Source: a virus. Taken from it: 64,000 bases of DNA. The translations under genes and the position numbers were made by a program. Under the pieces are notes generated by a model, which was not told the DNA's origin, ran no database searches, and saw only the letters and a program-made list of their open reading frames with translations. The DNA lies in IMG/VR virus record IMGVR_UViG_3300022540_000472, positions 28,114 through 92,113 of that record, one strand, 5' to 3'. Shown piece by piece: positions 8,665 to 37,893 of this stretch; the first letter of the stretch is position 1, and each line of letters opens with the position of its first letter.

Positions 8665-9546
8665 ATGAAATATTATCACGATTATACTTATCTTGACCTT
8701 GTACAAAAAGTTCTTGAAACTGGTCACCAAAAAGGTGATAGAACAGGAACAGGAACTATAAGCACATTTGCTCAACAAATGCGTTTTAATTTAGCAGATG
8801 GAACTATTCCAATGCTAACAACAAAGAAAATGTTTACACGTGGAATCATTCACGAAATTCTTTGGTACCTTAAAGGCGAAACTAATATCCAATATTTGTT
8901 AGACAATGATGTACATATTTGGGATGAGTGGGCTGACGAGAATGGTGACCTAGGACCTATATATGGTGCACAGTGGAGACGCTGGCCTAGCTATAAATGG
9001 CAAAAAGATACTGGTGCATTTCCTAGTGGAGATACAGGTAGTTATGTAAAAAGTGAAATTGATCAAATTGCAACTGTGATTGACCAACTACGAAATAATC
9101 CAAACGATCGTCGTATCATTGTTAACGCTTGGAATGTTGGACAACTTGATGAAATGGCTTTACCGCCTTGTCATGCTATGTTCCAATTCTGGTCACATGA
9201 AGTTGAAGGTTCAGACAAGCGAACACTATCATGTCATCTATATCAACGTTCTTGTGATGTTGGTCTTGGGGTTCCATTTAACATTGTACAATATAGTATC
9301 TTGACTCACATGATTGCTCAAGTGACTGGTCATGTTGCTTCAGAGTTTGTTTGGACTGGTGGTGATGTCCATATCTATAACAACCACATCGAAGCATTGA
9401 AAGAACAACTTGAAAGAAAACCATATCCATCACCAATGTTAGTACTTAATCCAGATGTAAAAGAAATTGATGATTTTAATATTGAAGACTTTGAGATTGT
9501 TAATTACGAAAGTCATCCAACAATAAAAATGAAGGTTAGTGTATGA
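8665..9546 (+). CDS. thyA: Thymidylate synthase
   Basis: A 293-residue ThyA-type enzyme converting dUMP to dTMP with methylene-tetrahydrofolate. Visible family elements are GDRTGTGT near residue 24, the RRW region after [34 protein letters not shown] with the catalytic cysteine in [19 protein letters not shown], and [10 protein letters not shown]. Length is normal. With the DHFR at 12643, dCMP deaminase and NrdAB it completes phage dTMP supply. It overlaps the next gene by four bases. Confidence 0.97.
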
Positions 9547-9902
9547 GTCGTAATCTAAACATAAGAACAAAAAATATTAACAGCAAACGATTATATGATG
9601 AAATTAATGAATTTGTTGAATCAGGATTAATGAGTATCGGGATTCGTTGGACTACACCTGAAAACCGAGACACATTTTCAGAAATACTTGGAGAGTGGCT
9701 TGAAGAATTTCAAGGAGAGGGACGGATAACTCAATACAATGTTATTTGTGATGATCGTAACAACTCCACCAAACAACAAAAGAAAGGGATTTTCAAAGTT
9801 TCTATTACGTACAAACAAATGCATTGTCTAAATGTGACTTCGATAGATTATGAACTTGTAGAAAGTAACAATCCCGTAGATGATGACATTATAACTTATT
9901 GA
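9543..9902 (+). CDS. Hypothetical protein
   Basis: A 119-residue protein whose ATG overlaps the thyA stop. A helix ([15 protein letters not shown]) is followed by a strand-rich C-terminal half ([27 protein letters not shown]). The last part loosely recalls the sheet-forming C-terminus found in some phage tail proteins, but its position after thyA argues for an early role. Unknown. Confidence 0.65.
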
Positions 9903-12642: not shown

Positions 12643-13209
12643 ATGAAAAAAATATCGGTAATAGTAGCTGTCGATGAACAAGGCGGCTTTGGATTAAACG
12701 GAAAAATTCCGTGGCACTTCCCAGAAGATTTTAAACATTTTAAAGACACTACGATGGGTGGTGTCTGTATTATGGGCAGGAAAACATACGAAGAGATTGT
12801 TCAAATGTCGGGTCGCAAGAATAAAGCGATTCAAACATATGAGGAAATCGCAGATATGGGAAGTCCAGAACAAAAACCAACAGAAGAGAAACCATTATTA
12901 GATGGACGAGAATGTTTCGTATTATCCAGTGATGCAAATTTCAAACCTATTGGTGCTGAACGTGGTGCTGGATTACGAGAGGTGATTGAAAAGTTAGATG
13001 ATACAGATAATCGTGAAATATTTGTAATTGGAGGTGAGAAACTCTTCATTCAAGCATTGGCTTGGACGGATAAAATATACATGACAATCATCAAGAATGA
13101 TTATGAATGTGACCGATTCTTCCCGATTCAAAATTTATCCAAAACCTATAGGATTGATTCTGGTGAAGAATTAGATGAAATGTACTTTGTACGATATATA
13201 AGGAAGTAA
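12643..13209 (+). CDS. Dihydrofolate reductase
   Basis: A 188-residue DHFR. Family landmarks: SVIVAVDEQGGFGLNGKIPW at the N-terminus, FKDTTMGGVCIMGRKTYE (NADPH-binding region), CFVLSSD, and VIGGEKLFIQAL with the GG pair. It reduces dihydrofolate to tetrahydrofolate, restoring the cofactor used by the phage ThyA. It is slightly longer than bacterial FolA (about 160), like T4 Frd. No strong ribosome site is visible just before the ATG, so translation may depend on coupling or on upstream RNA structure. Confidence 0.95.
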   Translation: MKKISVIVAVDEQGGFGLNGKIPWHFPEDFKHFKDTTMGGVCIMGRKTYEEIVQMSGRKNKAIQTYEEIADMGSPEQKPTEEKPLLDGRECFVLSSDANFKPIGAERGAGLREVIEKLDDTDNREIFVIGGEKLFIQALAWTDKIYMTIIKNDYECDRFFPIQNLSKTYRIDSGEELDEMYFVRYIRK

Positions 13210-13231: not shown

Positions 13232-13429
13232 GTGACAGATATTTGTAAATCTGGAAAGATTGGCGATAGCTACTCTTTTCTCATAATTGCTAACAATGAC
13301 AAAGAATTTGATATAACACTAAACACACCAACAGAACAATATACAAACAAAACAACATCATCGCAGTCAGCAGCGCTTTGGTTGGAACAAAAGATAAATA
13401 TAATAAACAACGAACAACGAGAAGAATAA
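13232..13429 (+). CDS. Hypothetical small protein (GTG start)
   Basis: A 65-residue protein starting with GTG at 13232, with GGAG nine to twelve bases upstream. The N-terminal half is strand-like (YSFLIIANNDKEFDITL) and the C-terminal half a charged helix. Its last base is the A of the next ATG (TAATGG). Unknown. Confidence 0.55.
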   Translation: MTDICKSGKIGDSYSFLIIANNDKEFDITLNTPTEQYTNKTTSSQSAALWLEQKINIINNEQREE

Positions 13430-13932
13430 TGGAAGAGAATTTACCAAGTGGGACATATGCTGCTGTCCACTTTGACGAACAAACGATAAACAAAATTCAA
13501 CAATTTATCACTGACAACAACATCCCAAATGGATTAGCCCCAAACAAGATGCACTGTACACTTTTGTATAGTAGAAAACATTTACCTGATTATGTTCGGC
13601 ATGGAGATATCAATCCACCACTAAAAGGTACGCCTACTAAATTGGAAAAGTGGCCAAGTCAGCCTGATAGCGAAGGCAACGTGTCTATGTGTCTTGTAAT
13701 GAAATTTGATTGTCCTGAATTAGTGGAACGACACAACTTTTTAATGAAAGAACATAATGCTTCATTTGATTTTGATAAGTATACTCCTCATGTTACATTA
13801 TCATATGATGTTGCAGGAATGCAAGTTAAAGACCTTTCCAACATTGAAGATACAGTTGATAGCATGACGGTTGTATATGAATATGGAGATGACTTAAATT
13901 TAGATTGGGCGAAAACAAGCACATCTTCCTAA
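13429..13932 (+). CDS. acb1: Acb1-like anti-CBASS 2H phosphodiesterase
   Basis: A 167-residue protein started at 13429, coupled to the preceding stop. It has the two HxT motifs of the 2H phosphoesterase fold: MHCTLLYSRKHL near residue 42 and PHVTLSYDVAG near residue 121, with family-like spacing. The LYSRKH and LMKEHNASFDFDKYTPH contexts match Acb1 as I know it from T4 gene 57B. Acb1 hydrolyses cyclic di- and trinucleotide messengers made by CBASS immunity. Placement among early nucleotide-metabolism genes suits an anti-defence factor. Assignment as Acb1 is from motif context, not a search. Confidence 0.8.
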   Translation: MEENLPSGTYAAVHFDEQTINKIQQFITDNNIPNGLAPNKMHCTLLYSRKHLPDYVRHGDINPPLKGTPTKLEKWPSQPDSEGNVSMCLVMKFDCPELVERHNFLMKEHNASFDFDKYTPHVTLSYDVAGMQVKDLSNIEDTVDSMTVVYEYGDDLNLDWAKTSTSS

Positions 13933-13956: not shown

Positions 13957-14394
13957 ATGTTCAAAGGATTGATATTTTTGTTGTTTTTGTTTAGTACCTC
14001 TGCAGTTGCGGTTGATTACGCAGCTATGGTTAAACAAGAAGGTAATGCTCTTGTTCTATCTGTCGGAGGAGAACGTATTGCATCTATTGATGAATATGGA
14101 CTCAAGTCGAAGAAAGTACAACAACAAATACTTGATAGAGCTGTAAAGCAAGTAGATTTTTGTGCTACAAAAGGTCGGTGGGGTAGTTCTCTCGCTGATG
14201 AAGCAAAAGATAAAATCGGTAATGTAAAATTTCATATAAATCGTTTATATGAGATGACAAAAGATATCAAGATTCCACGATATATGATCGTTGATAATGA
14301 ACGAATGATACGAGAAGCATACAGACATGGTTATAAAGACCATTATCAATTTGGAGTGCAAGTTATAAAGGATTGTCTAGTTAATGGATTTTAA
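13957..14394 (+). CDS. Exported hypothetical protein
   Basis: A 145-residue protein with a typical signal peptide (MFKGLIFLLFLF, cleavage after SAVA near residue 18). The mature part is helical and basic, with two cysteines that could form a disulfide in the periplasm (CATKG and near the end DCLV). A GGGAGAAGG ribosome site precedes the ATG. A CTAAATAT, a weak match to the late octamer, lies about 25 bases upstream. Unknown function; a periplasmic phage product could affect lysis, superinfection or the cell wall. Confidence 0.7.
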   Translation: MFKGLIFLLFLFSTSAVAVDYAAMVKQEGNALVLSVGGERIASIDEYGLKSKKVQQQILDRAVKQVDFCATKGRWGSSLADEAKDKIGNVKFHINRLYEMTKDIKIPRYMIVDNERMIREAYRHGYKDHYQFGVQVIKDCLVNGF

Positions 14395-14397
14395 TTG

Positions 14398-14435
14398 TTG
14401 ACTTTTTAGTCTCTTTGTTATATAATTTATAAATA
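14398..14435 (+). promoter_or_regulatory. Overlapping sigma70 and T4-type late promoters for tmRNA
   Basis: TTGACT (14398-14403), 17 bp, TATAAT (14421-14426) is a near-perfect early promoter. It is followed two bases later by TATAAATA (14428-14435), a perfect late octamer. The tmRNA could therefore be made both early and late in infection. Confidence 0.75.
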
Positions 14436-14800
14436 GATATATCATTGTATGAAAGTAATGAAATAGGAAGGTAACACGCGGGTTCGAATCCCGCCTTCTC
14501 CACCAAAAGCATTTTATGCGGCAGCAAAGTTTTAGTTTAGCGACTGAAAAATGGTTAGAATGAAAAAATTAGCCCGCCTAACCAGAATGCTTCTGATGGG
14601 GATGACTTGGAATCGACTATCGACTGAAAGATTACTGGACAGTGCGTCAAGTTGACCGACGTAAAAAGGGCAAAAAACTATAATTGCAAATGACGAAAGT
14701 TATGCATATGCAATGGCTGCCTAAACAGCAATAGCCATTACGGGGTTGATAAAACCTGGCAACAGAATTATCATTAGGGTAGCTTCGGCTGCCCTTTTTA
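14433..14800 (+). ncRNA. ssrA: Circularly permuted (two-piece) tmRNA
   Basis: tmRNA rescues stalled ribosomes and tags the nascent chain for degradation. Here the tRNA-like halves are in reversed order. The acceptor piece comes first: T arm GCGGG-TTCGAAT-CCCGC (14478-14494), CTTCTCC (14495-14501), A, CCA (14503-14505). The coding piece starts GGGGATGACTTGGAATCGAC at 14598. Its GGGGATG pairs with CTTCTCC at six of seven positions and keeps the third-pair G-U that marks alanine identity. The resume codon GCA is at 14686 and the tag reads ANDESYAYAMAA with TAA at 14722-14724. GGTT/AACC plus GATAA/TTATC form an H-type pseudoknot at 14744-14773. The ends meet in a 7-bp stem, AAGCATT/AATGCTT (14507-14513, 14586-14592), and the 92-base insert between them would be removed. 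The 5' boundary of the acceptor piece is inferred. Confidence 0.92.
14777..14799 (+). terminator. Intrinsic terminator of the tmRNA
   Basis: GGGTAGC-TTCG-GCTGCCC, a 7-bp stem (one G-T pair) with a UUCG tetraloop, followed by TTTTT. It closes the tmRNA transcript before the ClpP-like gene. Confidence 0.9.
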
Positions 14801-14818
14801 TTGCCTGTCATTTCTTCA

Positions 14819-14826
14819 CATAAATA
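14819..14826 (+). promoter_or_regulatory. T4-type late promoter for the ClpP-like gene
   Basis: CATAAATA placed 40 bases upstream of the ATG at 14866, just after the tmRNA terminator, which implies the protease gene is independently and probably late transcribed. Confidence 0.5.
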
Positions 14827-14865
14827 ATATTATAACAAAAACATCAACTCATAAAAGAAGATTAT

Positions 14866-15492
14866 ATGACATATAAATTTGAAGAAGAAGCAAACGAAAA
14901 TGAAATTAAAAAACCTTTCAAATATTACGAAAGTCCAACTGGGCAAAGAATTCATCATTTCTACATAAGTGAAAGTGTAGAAGAACCAGCTAAGTATGTT
15001 GATATGATTCATCGTATCAAAACGGCTGGACCAACTGACTTAGTTTACATCTACCTCAATACACCTGGTGGATATATCAATACTGGTATACAAATTATAA
15101 GTGCCATAAAATCATCACAGGCTCATGTTATAACAGTACTCGAAGGAGAAGTTTGTTCTCTTGGTACTCTTATATTTCTTTCTGGTGACGAATTCATTGT
15201 TCATGACTTCTGTATGTTCATGATTCATAATTATAGTGGTGGTACATATGGTAAAGGCCACGAGCAAGTTGCTCAACTTGAAGCTATGACAAGAGAATGG
15301 GGAAAATTAGCTCATGACATTTATGTTCCTTTTATTACCGAAGAAGAACTTGAACGAATTATTAAAGGCGAAGACCTTTGGATGGGTAGTGACGAAGTTC
15401 GTACTCGATTGCAGAAGATGCTTAAAACTATGGAAAGAGAAGCTAAATCCAAATTGAAGGCTGAAAAAGCTGCTCTAAAAAAGACTAAATAA
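14866..15492 (+). CDS. ClpP-like serine protease
   Basis: A 208-residue protein of the ClpP/crotonase fold. VYIYLNTPGGYINTGIQIISAI matches the ClpP oxyanion-side strand. Ser98 in GEVCSLG replaces the usual GxASM context, His121 in FMIHNYSGG fits the catalytic histidine, and Asp170 in KGEDLWMG fits the third residue. ClpP degrades proteins fed by AAA+ unfoldases. Phage ClpP-like proteins can also serve as capsid maturation proteases. The lysine-rich C-terminal tail is unusual. It directly follows the tmRNA gene, whose tags are normally destroyed by ClpXP and ClpAP, so a functional link is possible. The hydrophobic IGF/L docking surface cannot be judged by eye. Confidence 0.8.
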   Translation: MTYKFEEEANENEIKKPFKYYESPTGQRIHHFYISESVEEPAKYVDMIHRIKTAGPTDLVYIYLNTPGGYINTGIQIISAIKSSQAHVITVLEGEVCSLGTLIFLSGDEFIVHDFCMFMIHNYSGGTYGKGHEQVAQLEAMTREWGKLAHDIYVPFITEEELERIIKGEDLWMGSDEVRTRLQKMLKTMEREAKSKLKAEKAALKKTK

Positions 15493-15530: not shown

Positions 15531-15559
15531 TTGATTTCCTCACCGCATTATTGTATAAT
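15531..15559 (+). promoter_or_regulatory. Sigma70 promoter abutting the primase start
   Basis: TTGATT, 17 bp, TATAAT. The -10 ends only six bases before the ATG at 15566, so the expected transcript start coincides with the initiation codon. A CCCC/GGGG hairpin at about 15514-15526 lies just upstream, without a T run. Confidence 0.65.
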
Positions 15560-15565
15560 AGGCTG

Positions 15566-16636
15566 ATGAAAGATGTCCGCTTAGAAGATGTAATACGCAA
15601 TTATGTTCCCCTACCACTTCACCCCAATGGTCGTGGTTTCTATTCTGTCCTCTGTAAAGTATGTGGAGATAGAGGCCACAAAGGAATGAGAGCTGGATTT
15701 AAGTTTGATAATGATGCAGTTGGATATAATTGTTTCAATTGTGGACACAAGGCTATATACGACCCAAATGCTGAAGTAATACCCAACCACCCAAGCATTT
15801 CAGATGCTATGACAAAAGTTCTTGATGCGTTCAATATTCCCGACGATGAATGGAAACAAGTCTTATTAACGAATATGGCTAATGACCATCAGGGGTTCAA
15901 AAACGTTGGGAAGCAGCCAGTACATTTAGATATAGAGCCAAAAGAAATTGAGCTACCAAAACACTTCTATCCCCTTGGTAATGAAGAAGATACTAACAAA
16001 TGGACACAGATTGCACGATTCTATCTTGAAGAGAGAGGAATATCCCCCGATTCTGGTCCGTTCTATCTGTCCACAGGACAAGGTGATAAGCAGGCTGCAA
16101 AATGGAAAGGACGAATTATAATACCGATATACAAAGATGAGAAGCTGATATTTTACCAAGGACGAGCTCTCGTTGATATGCAAAAGAAATATATGAGTCC
16201 ACCAACCCCCAAAGACAAGGTGTTGTATGGATTTGACAAATTATTCAAAAATGCTGATTTACCATTATATGTCGTTGAGGGGTGGTTTGATGCGTATGCC
16301 ATTGATGGAGTTGCTGTTTTTGGTAATCAATTATCAGATGAACAGGTAAAATGGCTAAATAGAAGCAGACGTCCAAAAGTCATAATACCTGACAGGTTTG
16401 GTGATGGTCATATATTAGCGAATCAAGCGTTAAAAATGGGATGGCAAGTAAGTACACCAGATGTTGGAAATTGCAAAGACATGAACGCTGCTGTTCAAAG
16501 ATATGGAAAGCTGTATGTAATGAAGTCAATAATTGAACACACGATGTCTGAATTTATGGCTGAGACAGCGATTGGAGTATATTGCAAGGGTGGACAAAAT
16601 AAAGGCAAGACGAAGAATAAAAAAACACGTTCGTGA
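15566..16636 (+). CDS. DNA primase (DnaG/gp61-like)
   Basis: A 356-residue primase. The N-terminal zinc ribbon has CKVC followed by CFNC in a GYNCFNCGHKA context (about 30-62). A TOPRIM-type domain follows, with LYVVEGWFDAYAIDGVAVFGNQL (EGxxD motif) and KVIIPDRFGDGH. It would lay RNA primers for the phage fork together with the helicase at 33135. The start at ATG 15566 is chosen over TTG at 15521. If the adjacent promoter is the main one, the mRNA would be leaderless. The C-terminus overlaps the SprT-like gene. Confidence 0.85.
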   Translation: MKDVRLEDVIRNYVPLPLHPNGRGFYSVLCKVCGDRGHKGMRAGFKFDNDAVGYNCFNCGHKAIYDPNAEVIPNHPSISDAMTKVLDAFNIPDDEWKQVLLTNMANDHQGFKNVGKQPVHLDIEPKEIELPKHFYPLGNEEDTNKWTQIARFYLEERGISPDSGPFYLSTGQGDKQAAKWKGRIIIPIYKDEKLIFYQGRALVDMQKKYMSPPTPKDKVLYGFDKLFKNADLPLYVVEGWFDAYAIDGVAVFGNQLSDEQVKWLNRSRRPKVIIPDRFGDGHILANQALKMGWQVSTPDVGNCKDMNAAVQRYGKLYVMKSIIEHTMSEFMAETAIGVYCKGGQNKGKTKNKKTRS

Positions 16637-21049: not shown

Positions 21050-22382
21050 TTCACAATACGTTAATAACGAACGAAGAGAGTATTCACTGTATGTTCTACA
21101 GATGAGAGCTATCGCAGCAATATCTGATGGACTCAAAGCAGGTGGACGTCGCGTTTTATGGACAGCTCGGAATGGTCAAAAATTTAAAAGTGCTACGCTT
21201 GCTGGTGCAACAATGCCAATCCACCCACATGCTGCACCCGAAGGAGCAATTAATACGTTAGCTGCTCCTTATGGAAATAACATTCCTTTATTAAATGGAG
21301 ATGGTGCTTTTGGTACTCTATTAAATCCTACTGCATATGGTGCCGCTCGTTACACAAGTGTTAAAGTATCTAAATTTACAAAAGATGTTATCTTTAGGGA
21401 TATCGAAATCATTCCAATGGGTGAAAATTATGATGGTACGCTTGAAGAACCAAAACATTTTCTTCCATTAGTCCCAATTGTATTATTAAACCCAAGCGAA
21501 GGGATTGCTGTTGGTTTCGCATCAACTATTCTTCCTCGTGACCTTGAAGATATAATCAATTCACAAATTGCTTATCTATCAAATAAAAAGTTTGAAGAGA
21601 TGATGACTGCATTTATGCCTACGGATAACATAGCAGTAGATTGGATGGAAACAACAACAGGAAATGTTAAATGGATATTTGAAGGTGCATTCAAAAAGAT
21701 TAATGCATCTACAATACAAATTACAAAACTTCCATATAGTGTATCACATGAAAAGTTTACTGACAATCTAATGAAGTTGGTAGATGATGGTAGCTTTGTT
21801 GTAGACTTTACAGATAGCTCCAAAGACAAATTTAACATTGAAGTTAAGTTCAAACGTGGTGCTATTGATAATACCTCCAAAAAAGAAATGCTGAAAAAAT
21901 TAAATTTAATTAATAGCGTATCAGAAAATATGAATGTTCTTGACTTTGATGGAAAATATGTTCTATCAACCAATTACATTGAAGTAATTGGTAAGTTTTG
22001 TGATTGGAGATTGAAATGGTACAAGGACCGTTACGAACGACTTGCTGAACTTCTTCATATTGACATACAACGATACAAAGACATCATAACGGCAATTAAG
22101 CGTAACGTTGGTGGGACAGCTAAGAAAATAGGGTCAAAAAATGAGCTTAAGGATTTTTTGAAAGAAATAGGAATTATTCATATTGATTATATTGCTGAAC
22201 TTCCTGTTTATAGGTTCACTGAAGATGAGAAAAATAAGGTGGAAGATAAATTAAAAGCTGCAAATATCAAGATGAAAGAGCACAAGACCCTGTTGTCTTC
22301 TGAACCTGAAAGACGTAAAATATACGTTAAAGAGTTAAGGGAAATTTTACGAAAATATACAAAAGGTGAATATAATGAGTGA
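21042..22382 (+). CDS. 52: Topoisomerase II DNA-cleavage subunit (gp52-like)
   Basis: A 446-residue GyrA/ParC-like protein, close to T4 gp52 in length and lacking the C-terminal beta-pinwheel of GyrA. ATG 21042 follows AAGGA; the in-frame ATG at 21003 is not used in this model. The active-site tyrosine lies in GAARYTSVKVSK, preceded by NGDGAFGT. SEGIAVGFASTILPRD matches the GyrA family. It works with the subunit encoded at 17057, four genes upstream. Confidence 0.93.
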   Translation: MNSSQYVNNERREYSLYVLQMRAIAAISDGLKAGGRRVLWTARNGQKFKSATLAGATMPIHPHAAPEGAINTLAAPYGNNIPLLNGDGAFGTLLNPTAYGAARYTSVKVSKFTKDVIFRDIEIIPMGENYDGTLEEPKHFLPLVPIVLLNPSEGIAVGFASTILPRDLEDIINSQIAYLSNKKFEEMMTAFMPTDNIAVDWMETTTGNVKWIFEGAFKKINASTIQITKLPYSVSHEKFTDNLMKLVDDGSFVVDFTDSSKDKFNIEVKFKRGAIDNTSKKEMLKKLNLINSVSENMNVLDFDGKYVLSTNYIEVIGKFCDWRLKWYKDRYERLAELLHIDIQRYKDIITAIKRNVGGTAKKIGSKNELKDFLKEIGIIHIDYIAELPVYRFTEDEKNKVEDKLKAANIKMKEHKTLLSSEPERRKIYVKELREILRKYTKGEYNE

Positions 22383-23367
22383 TACGGAAGACCTGCAAGA
22401 ATTTAATGCAAAAGCAAAAAAGGGCCCAAACAGGGAAGATTCGGAAGTTGAAATTTGGTCGGATGAACCTGCTATAACAGCATCACACATTGCTGAAAGT
22501 GCGGGTGCTAAAATGTGGGCAGTATATGGCAATGCATATAGTCCATGTGAGAAAGCAGTTAATGCACTTCCTCCTGGTCAATACACAATTGATGCATCTC
22601 AAGAACGTGGAATATTTTTCTCAAAGAAAGATGTTAACCTTGATGATTTAATGATTCTTCCTGATAGTGCTTCTGAGGAAGTTATTGAAGGGATTGAAAC
22701 TTTTTGGAAGAAGGAAGACCATTTCCGTAAATTTGGTTTCTTATGGAAACGTGGTGTAATGTTATGGGGTCCTCCAGGTAGTGGCAAAACTTCTACCGTT
22801 CAATTAATTTCAAAAATGATTGTTGATAGAGGTGGACTTTCCGCTTATATTCAAAATCCTGAACTTGGTGCTCGTGGTCTTGAATTGATGCGCCGAATAG
22901 AGCCTGACCGTCCTATCGTTGTCATTCTCGAAGACATTGACGCAATTGCTCAACGATACAGTGAAGCAGATTTACTTGCGTTATTAGATGGTGAATTACA
23001 AATTGATAACGTTATCTTTATTGCGACAACTAACTATCCTGAACGTCTTGATAAGCGATTAACTAATCGTCCAAGTCGTTTTGATATCGTTAAAAAAATT
23101 GGTATGCCTTCAACTGATGCTCGTCGTGTCTACATTAAAGCGACGAACAAAAGACTTGGGGGAAATGAAAACCAAGCTGAACTTGAAATGTGGATTAAGC
23201 AAACCAAACAATTCTCCCTTGCACATATCAAAGAACTGATTATATCAGTTGAAGTATTTGAAGTACCTTTGGAAAGTGCGGTTGAGCGTCTTCGTACAAT
23301 GATGGACATTAACTTAAAATCCGAAGATGGATATGATAAGAAAAGTATGGGGTTTGGTCGTGACTAA
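22375..23367 (+). CDS. AAA+ ATPase
   Basis: A 330-residue protein with start ATG 22375 after AAAGGTG. It has Walker A GPPGSGKT (about residue 132), Walker B VVILEDIDAI (about 180), sensor 1 IATTNYPERLD and an arginine-rich RPSRFD, as in classical AAA proteins of the BCS1/FtsH-like branch. It lacks a protease domain and membrane helix and has about 120 N-terminal residues of unknown fold. It is not the T4 clamp loader by motif context. It may be an unfoldase or remodelling ATPase; whether it could serve the ClpP-like protein is untested. It overlaps the gp52-like stop. Confidence 0.8.
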   Translation: MSDTEDLQEFNAKAKKGPNREDSEVEIWSDEPAITASHIAESAGAKMWAVYGNAYSPCEKAVNALPPGQYTIDASQERGIFFSKKDVNLDDLMILPDSASEEVIEGIETFWKKEDHFRKFGFLWKRGVMLWGPPGSGKTSTVQLISKMIVDRGGLSAYIQNPELGARGLELMRRIEPDRPIVVILEDIDAIAQRYSEADLLALLDGELQIDNVIFIATTNYPERLDKRLTNRPSRFDIVKKIGMPSTDARRVYIKATNKRLGGNENQAELEMWIKQTKQFSLAHIKELIISVEVFEVPLESAVERLRTMMDINLKSEDGYDKKSMGFGRD

Positions 23368-36853: not shown

Positions 36854-37197
36854 TGTTTCTTGATGAAATTTTATATGAATGTGAAGTGATTTATACTGAT
36901 GAAGAGGGTAATACTCTCAATGAAGCTGCACTGAGACAGTTTAAACGTTTTGGGTCAGTAATTAAACGACAATACCGTTGCACTTCTGGACCAAAAAAAG
37001 GTAAGATAGTAGCTTCTCCACAATCTTGTAGCCAACGTAAAGACCCACGTAAAGTCCGTCACGGTAAAAAAGTTGCAAGGACGAAGAAAGGAATACGGGT
37101 TCGTAAGACAGCGATTGCTAAAAGAAAGTCAATTTCTAAAATGGTTACAAAAATGAACCAAAGATTATCTGGTAAACGACCAGTGGCGACAAAATAA
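36853..37197 (+). CDS. Strongly basic, probably DNA-binding virion protein
   Basis: A 114-residue protein. The N-terminal 27 residues are acidic (MFLDEILYECEVIYTDEEGN). The rest is extremely basic, with a core RQYRCTSGPKKGKIVASPQS and then repeated KK and RK pairs. Proteins with this core occur in marine T4-like phages near head genes. A packaged DNA-binding protein whose acidic head is removed during maturation would fit the charge split, but that is inference. Confidence 0.6.
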   Translation: MFLDEILYECEVIYTDEEGNTLNEAALRQFKRFGSVIKRQYRCTSGPKKGKIVASPQSCSQRKDPRKVRHGKKVARTKKGIRVRKTAIAKRKSISKMVTKMNQRLSGKRPVATK

Positions 37198-37227
37198 GCG
37201 GCTAAATAAAACTTAATAAATATATGT

Positions 37228-37893
37228 ATGACATTCAATCACACAAACATTCCACAATTCAACGAACTTGATGCTAAAATTGTCAATGGGAAGCGTTATT
37301 ATACGACTCCCACTGGCAAGAAGTATCCATCCATAACAACAATCCTTAGCTCCAAACCAAAACCATATCTTGAAGCATGGCGACAATCTCTTGGTGTGGC
37401 CAAAGCTGATAAAGAAACAAAACGATGTGCTGATAGAGGGACTGTAGTTCATCTTTTAGCTGAAAAATATCTAAACAATGAAGAAAATTTCACGAAAGGT
37501 GAAAAAGTTGAAAATGTTCGTTTGTTTAATCAAATCAAGCTTCGCCTCAATAAAATCAATAATATCCGCGCTCAAGAAGTACCACTTTATAGTGATAGAT
37601 TAGAGATTGCTGGTCGTGTTGATTGCGTGGGAGAATATGACGGTACGCTTTCTATCATTGATTTTAAGACGTCCAACAATAACAAGACAGCAGATATGAT
37701 TGAAGATTATTTCATTCAATGTACTGCGTATGCTATTATGTATCATGAATTATTTGGTGAGGCTATTGAAGATATTGTTGTAATAATTGCAGTCGAGAAG
37801 GGAATGATGCCAATGGTGTATAGGCGCAAAATTGATGATTATATTGCACCGTTGTTGGAACGTATAAATACATTCCAGAAGGAGAACTCTTAA
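37228..37893 (+). CDS. PD-(D/E)XK exonuclease (RecB/Cas4/MGME1-like)
   Basis: A 221-residue nuclease. After RYYTTPTGKKYPSITTIL come RGTVVHLLAE (motif I glutamate/histidine region), IAGRVDCVGEYDGTLSIIDFKTSN with the catalytic D and DxK motif, and FIQCTAYAIMY (QxxxY). This order is that of RecB-like exonucleases related to MGME1 that are common in marine T4-like phages. It probably processes DNA ends in recombination or host DNA breakdown. It abuts the retropepsin-like gene by a one-base overlap. Confidence 0.85.
   Translation: MTFNHTNIPQFNELDAKIVNGKRYYTTPTGKKYPSITTILSSKPKPYLEAWRQSLGVAKADKETKRCADRGTVVHLLAEKYLNNEENFTKGEKVENVRLFNQIKLRLNKINNIRAQEVPLYSDRLEIAGRVDCVGEYDGTLSIIDFKTSNNNKTADMIEDYFIQCTAYAIMYHELFGEAIEDIVVIIAVEKGMMPMVYRRKIDDYIAPLLERINTFQKENS

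Follow-up and report, generated by a model that had tools for sequence, protein, structure and literature searches.

A circularly permuted (two-piece) tmRNA gene lies directly upstream of a gene for a ClpP-family protease in the window, the 64,000-nucleotide stretch of viral DNA analysed here (positions 28114-92113 of a 92 kb viral record), and this adjacency is conserved, though not obligate, in a group of jumbo-type phages. The original prediction had proposed a tmRNA gene followed by a ClpP-like gene and was silent on the permutation; the gene order was confirmed by ARAGORN, two Rfam models and PF00574. The reading we lean towards, with slightly better than even confidence, is that a jumbo-type phage carries a self-contained rescue tmRNA working on host factors beside a phage peptidase of the ClpP family, and that the two genes are neighbours mainly via gene order. 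The features of the region are collected in Table 1.

Table 1. Features around the tmRNA and ClpP genes, in window coordinates
Feature	Position	Strand	Basis
Dihydrofolate reductase (DHFR), same conserved block	12643-13209	+	PF00186
Acb1-type anti-CBASS protein, upstream of tmRNA	13378-13932	+	PF23474, 109 bits, cut-off 27
Sigma-70-like promoter of tmRNA, TTGACT-17-TATAAT, 11/12	14398-14426	+	Promoter scan
Acceptor/T-arm piece with encoded CCA end (CTTCTCC 14495-14501, ACCA 14502-14505); 5' boundary approximate	14433-14505	+	Sequence, ARAGORN, RF04321
Intervening segment separating the two tmRNA pieces	14506-14597	+	Sequence, permuted layout
mRNA-like tmRNA piece, 5' GGGGATG; 3' boundary approximate	14598-14775	+	Sequence by eye, ARAGORN, Rfam
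Tag frame ANDESYAYAMAA and stop	14686-14724	+	ARAGORN, coding part 275-313 of gene
Terminator-like hairpin with T run, 3' of tmRNA	14776-14795	+	Hairpin scan
ClpP-family serine protease (phrog_1827), triad S98/H121/D170, 208 aa	14866-15492	+	PF00574, phrog, alignment, model
DNA primase, usual next gene after ClpP in the group	15556-16636	+	phrog, primase profile

The gene at 14433-14795 is a circularly permuted tmRNA gene. ARAGORN reported it as a permuted tmRNA (tmRNA*) at 14412-14815 with the tag ANDESYAYAMAA, the sole RNA gene of the window, and Rfam gave 113 bits for RF04321 tmRNA_permuted (cut-off 47, match 14443-14724) and 95 bits for RF01849 alpha_tmRNA (cut-off 50). The two-piece order could be read from the sequence: T-arm and acceptor with an encoded CCA, an intervening segment, and then the mRNA-like piece. 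By eye, GGGGATG (14598-14604) and CTTCTCC (14495-14501) form an acceptor stem with 6/7 pairs, one U-U and G3-U70 present, and the tag frame has its resume codon and stop (ARAGORN). With its own promoter and terminator-like hairpin, the tmRNA looks like a transcription unit of its own. The two genes had been described as separated by a terminator and a late promoter; the hairpin bears out the first part, but the 'late promoter' is weak, since its motifs CATAAATA and TATAAATA are each present seven times in the window, where 7.3 and 9.0 copies would be expected. No riboswitch was found in the window at the Rfam threshold, and the exact DNA pattern of the acceptor end gave no matches in viral contigs. 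Directly before the tmRNA, 13957-14394 encodes a small protein with a signal-peptide-like start and no family match; it has a homologue in contig L019 and a similar-looking ORF in L229.

The ClpP gene starts 70 bases after the tmRNA gene. Its product scored 51.4 bits with PF00574 CLP_protease (cut-off 20.2), and its best family was phrog_1827 'ATP-dependent protease' (210 bits). The triad S98, H121 and D170, as originally predicted, was invariant in a 49-row alignment and aligned with S111, H136 and D185 of the E. coli ClpP precursor. A single-chain model (pLDDT 88.5, pTM 0.80) matched 6wrf, the ClpP of a ClpXP complex, with Z 19.8 and rmsd 1.9 over 154 residues. The phage ClpP is probably a ring-forming serine peptidase. 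We know of no phage ClpP with a tested function. Used as a single query, the protein gave no confirmed relatives.

In E. coli ClpP we take the hydrophobic IGF pocket to be formed by Y60, Y62, F82, I90, M92, F112, L114 and L189. The phage protein keeps the two tyrosines (Y61, Y63) and has hydrophobic residues at V91 and I111, but F82 is changed to S83, M92 to E93 and L114 to H113, and the YGLVD end with L189 is missing, with a long C-terminal helix there in the model. The original prediction had asked whether the unfoldase docking pocket is kept; judged by this alignment at about 18-20% identity, with no solved or modelled ring, the E. coli-type pocket appears not to be. Because of the changed pocket residues and the missing YGLVD end, it is doubtful that host ClpX docks in the usual manner.

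We collected relatives of the ClpP in two scans, the first giving the best 80 of 121 contigs and the second the best 80 of 251, largely the same contigs. The nearest-ClpP set is the top 19 rows of the second scan (E up to 7e-47): L018, L019, L229, L230, L020, L021, L233, L022, L023, L236, L237, L024, L025, L026, L027, L028, L029, L030 and L245. A tmRNA was found directly upstream of ClpP in 14 of these 19 contigs, and in 12 of 16 when near-copies (L024/L025/L026 and L236/L237) were counted once, so that the adjacency which the original prediction wished to see traced in related phages has not been lost in all of them. L020, L236, L237, L027 and L245 had no adjacent upstream tmRNA, the search in L236, L237 and L245 covering the fetched stretches only. 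L018 shows only the 3' half of the tmRNA, the contig starting inside it, and the L023 tmRNA scored 44.5 bits, just under the cut-off, with both pieces readable. In L033, which stands lower in the list, the tmRNA lies just downstream of ClpP. The two genes are 86 kb apart in L020 and 49 kb apart in Xanthomonas phage XacN1; the whole records of Stenotrophomonas phage RAS14 and L027 gave no tmRNA above the cut-off. Upstream of ClpP in L027 (9340-9420), a sequence ending TCTCCACCA is followed by a hairpin and T run and adjoins an ORF that is HNH-like by eye; from its sequence, this stretch is perhaps the remnant of a lost tmRNA.

The 14 distinct tmRNAs next to ClpP, counting that of the window, all have tags that end in AA (10 LAA, 3 MAA and 1 QAA; the L018 tag was read by eye). 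Among tmRNAs unlinked from ClpP, that of L020 (L289, G003:8400-9400) has a tag ending in AYA, not xAA, and that of XacN1 a tag ending in ALAA. XacN1 (L290, record 36900-37800), which infects Xanthomonas, has the permuted tmRNA twice, at 37231 and 356026, with the tag ANANTFDYALAA. A script for acceptor pairs found ACCA-ended stems with 7/7 pairs in L019, L229, L022, L023 and L030, a figure that is partly one of choice because the script picked stems as best pairing; G3-U70 was kept in all five, and there were paired changes elsewhere in these stems (e.g. GGGGGAG/CTCTTCC, GGGAATG/CATTTCC). The script found in these five relatives the register that it missed in the window, where we had read it by eye; it gave a wrong or doubtful register for the window, L230, L233, L021, L025, L028 and L029, and it returned nothing for L033. 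Sigma-70-like sites before the tmRNA matched at 10-11 of 12 positions in L019, L229, L025, L021 and L230, and at 8-9 in the six others whose scan gave a result. In L023 (9085-9900), the intervening segment of the permuted tmRNA holds an HNH/endonuclease VII-like ORF (9195-9755; phrog_3322 68 bits, phrog_3118 HNH 52 bits), and the acceptor and mRNA-like pieces still pair 7/7 across it.

Controls were made from both sides of the pair. RF04321 was run on 50 whole records (of the 80 kept in the first scan), 14 of them in the group (L018-L030 and L033); among the 36 whole records outside the group it found no tmRNA within 1 kb of ClpP. The closest approaches there were L096, with a tmRNA 2.9 kb from ClpP, and L045, with a sub-cut-off match about 3.5 kb away. 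ARAGORN likewise placed no tmRNA within 1 kb of ClpP in 66 other loci (L031-L097 without L033), a weaker zero because ARAGORN missed the tmRNAs of L019, L023, L029 and L233. From the tmRNA side, at least 119 phage stretches carry the tmRNA RNA motif, and the 119 listed were examined. ARAGORN detected a tmRNA in 72 of the 119 listed, 51 of these having at least 1 kb on both sides; ClpP was present in two of the 72, 0.9 kb away in L173 and 2.6 kb away in L217. L132 and L224, where Rfam found the tmRNA and ARAGORN missed it, also had ClpP, giving 4/119 listed stretches, one of them within 1 kb; this count is a lower bound because many stretches are short. All four have ClpP on the same strand as the tmRNA and 0.9-2.7 kb further downstream. 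The L217 protein is of the phrog_1827 kind, whereas those of L132, L173 and L224 score best with a head-protease family and are only distant kin of the window's protein.

The pair belongs to a longer gene order, DHFR-Acb1-tmRNA-ClpP-primase-topoisomerase II, and homologues of DHFR and Acb1 were found upstream in many group members. A primase follows ClpP within 900 bases in 19 of 91 ClpP loci, all of them in the group (L233 fits too but overlaps), a count that favours the group because the primase profile was built from 13 of its members. XacN1 is annotated as NAD ligase-Clp protease-DNA primase, with the same layout by sequence in RAS14, and KVP40 and D479 have DHFR-clpP with no tmRNA between. 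In L229 and L230 no primase-profile match follows ClpP; an ATPase-like gene and then a primase/polymerase-like gene were read from the sequence there, and DHFR-Acb1-tmRNA-ClpP stays. The gene block around the tmRNA is wider than the pair and probably older. Since it has its own promoter and terminator and lies in this wider block, inherited gene order explains much of the adjacency. On a ClpP tree of 57 rows the adjacency label needs at least six changes, which fit one gain and five losses if two groups are one clade; several gains also fit. A tree of 60 rows with bacterial ClpPs gave seven changes and did not reject the group of 20 as one clade (p-AU 0.099), and the phage ClpPs were separated from the seven bacterial ClpPs used with 100/100 support.

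These data bear first on an explanation by synteny alone, in which a single ancestral insertion placed a tmRNA cassette between Acb1 and ClpP, descendants then keeping or losing it, with no functional link. The count of one gain and five losses, if there is one clade, agrees with it, as do a ClpP-primase order that is about equally well kept, DHFR standing next to ClpP in KVP40 and D479, and the cassette's own promoter and terminator. Against it, several gains are also compatible with the tree, and the two genes have stayed adjacent although a different gene now follows them in L229 and L230 and although the tmRNA switched sides in L033; gene order inherited passively would predict less. We regard a purely inherited neighbourhood as unlikely to be the whole account, although it stands first among the alternatives.

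Partners for the two gene products were sought in the same records. SmpB was found in 0/21 records, SspB in 0/15, and the AAA_2 domain (PF07724) over its cut-off in 0/15 IMG/VR records; the SmpB and AAA_2 searches covered records other than those of L229, L230, L233, L237 and L245, and several viral records are fragments. With neither SmpB nor SspB found, and with some records fragmentary, the tmRNA would have to be served by host SmpB. A phage unfoldase is still possible because of weak, sub-cut-off AAA_2 matches in G004, G007, G008 and G010 (E 3.5e-5 to 2.2e-4) and the fragmentary state of several records. Among six named phages, AAA_2 exceeded the cut-off in Sinorhizobium phage Phosso only.

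The AAA+ ATPase that the original prediction had suggested as the unfoldase is present (22366-23367), but by profile it is a classical AAA protein, matching PF00004 and VCP-like chains, and the record of the window has no match to the Clp-type domain PF07724. It was matched in 6/17 records, two of them weakly (E about 1e-3) and four clearly, the window's own included, with a further short weak match in L025, outside the 17. Its candidacy as a general protease partner was rejected, the match being clear in 4/17 records only. The protein also matches the IetA and TRIP13 profiles of defence systems. Its C-terminal tails in the window, L018, L019 and L020 (MGF, MGF, VGF and FGF) recall the Clp docking tripeptide; by our own estimate, a tripeptide of the [MVF]GF type near the protein end would perhaps be met by chance in about one in twenty of any proteins.

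A working pathway has been proposed for the pair, in which nascent chains on host mRNAs, or on truncated ones, receive the tag from the tmRNA and are then degraded by the phage ClpP, acting by itself or with an ATPase, so that amino acids are recycled. The tmRNA upstream of ClpP in most of the nearest-ClpP contigs would fit such coupling, and so would its retention in L229 and L230 and its switched side in L033. ClpP is rare near motif-picked permuted tmRNAs, yet in the four listed cases it is always downstream on the same strand. The AA end kept by every neighbouring tag, set against the AYA end of the unlinked L020 tag, points the same way, and a paper on methylophages speculates that host proteins are tagged for recycling (PMC9004378). 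However, the tmRNA and ClpP look like separate transcription units, XacN1 (with its ALAA tag) and L020 hold both genes unlinked, no Clp-type ATPase exceeded the cut-off in the IMG/VR records, the docking pocket seems not to be kept, and the tags look ordinary and host-readable. Adjacency alone does not make a tag-and-destroy module, because the tmRNA seems to form its own transcription unit, two relatives have the genes unlinked and the block is wider than the pair. We judge full coupling to be unlikely as well, and place it second among the alternatives; a link of the phage peptidase to the tag is plausible.

A more specific version would give the jumbo phage group a dedicated proteolysis route: chains made on broken mRNAs would be tagged by the two-piece tmRNA and broken down by the phage ClpP, bypassing host ClpXP. 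In the window's branch, docking would fall to the VCP-like AAA protein, whose C-terminal [MVF]GF tail would do what an internal IGF loop does in Clp ATPases. We consider this version doubtful, more so than coupling in general. Least probable by far is the view, raised in the original prediction, that the ClpP-like protein serves in capsid maturation as a prohead protease and is adjacent to the tmRNA by chance: there is weaker similarity to head maturation families (phrog_1684, the best of them, at 94 bits; phrog_94 at 78 bits), but the far higher phrog_1827 score, the predicted ClpP fold and neighbours from replication and nucleotide metabolism in the window (DHFR, Acb1, primase and topoisomerase) and in the annotated XacN1, KVP40 and D479 loci disfavour it. 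Placement among prohead proteases, a refuting condition in the original prediction, was judged by family scores, and these favour the non-head family.

We return to the reading of a rescue tmRNA that relies on host factors beside a phage peptidase. Host tRNA-processing enzymes would cleave the tmRNA precursor to give its two pieces, and alanine would be loaded onto the RNA. During infection it would act with host SmpB to release ribosomes that have stalled on broken mRNAs; the tag added to the fragments would end in Ala-Ala and could be recognised by host ClpXP or ClpAP. The phage ClpP would contribute proteolysis or peptide turnover in the infected cell, and no host Clp ATPase would dock to it as in E. 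coli. Under this reading it is mostly the conservation of gene order that would have kept the tmRNA and ClpP together; a functional link is possible and not needed.

The phage is related to the jumbo phages XacN1 and RAS14, and the record is probably a fragment of a jumbo genome. We infer this from the nearest relatives of its DNA polymerase (XacN1 and the Stenotrophomonas phages CM1 and RAS14, 46-47%) and of its gyrB (Sinorhizobium phage phiM9, Pootjesviridae, 35%). A scan of cellular genomes did not find a host, the best 80 of 528 relatives all being at most 34% identical. The permuted tmRNA leaves the host unsettled because XacN1 also has one; Xanthomonas, the host genus of XacN1, has a one-piece tmRNA. 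In six gyrB-relative regions ARAGORN found no tRNA or tmRNA gene in five and one tRNA in the sixth, and across the six whole records a tmRNA exceeded the cut-off in Phosso only; the idea that the pair is a trait of the nearest topoisomerase relatives was therefore rejected. Upstream of the window (L294:8291-13132) lies a YeaG-like kinase gene whose product shares 59-69% identity with proteins from uncultured phage records longer than 600 kb and from one record with the name Enterobacter phage LAU1; its neighbour matches phrog_10856 'sporulation protein' (68 bits).

Compared with the E. coli ClpP/ClpX/SsrA system, the phage ClpP has the same triad and fold and the phage tag also ends in AA. Unlike that system, the window's record holds no unfoldase over the cut-off and no SmpB, and its ClpP has only about 18-20% identity, an altered pocket and no YGLVD end. 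The KVP40 clpP and the XacN1 'Clp protease' (phrog_1827 kind) are related to the window's ClpP, but KVP40 and RAS14 are without a tmRNA over the cut-off and XacN1 has its tmRNA far from ClpP. Phosso has a permuted tmRNA over the cut-off, as in the window, and two of its open frames (795 and 431 aa) encode AAA_2 ATPases that pass theirs. Another Sinorhizobium phage, AP-J-162, is reported to have a tmRNA, six Clp proteins and clpX by IF-3 and topoisomerase genes, but the accessible part of its report describes no tmRNA-ClpP pair (PMC11242549). In one survey, tmRNA was found in 402 of 18,146 phage genomes, with 133 unique structures, 53 of them called two-piece (PMC9004378). According to the same source, the OM43 methylophage Melnitz and its relatives resemble the window in having a permuted two-piece tmRNA in a large phage, whereas the Melnitz tmRNA precedes a transcription coactivator and bears a glutamine riboswitch; the word ClpP is absent from the main text of this paper (PMC9004378). 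We found a phage tmRNA-ClpP pair in no title or abstract among the open-access papers searched, and as subscription journals lie mostly outside these it may be in print there.

Phage tmRNAs, two-piece ones included, are already known; what is worth knowing here is the conservation of the pair in a jumbo-type group, which bears on why phages carry tmRNA. The conserved pair offers a concrete test object, with XacN1 (genes apart) and RAS14 (RNA not found) as natural controls. If the two genes are coupled, they would make up a virus-owned route of protein tagging and degradation. If they are not, the anti-CBASS gene, the rescue RNA and the protease would still form a long-kept block.
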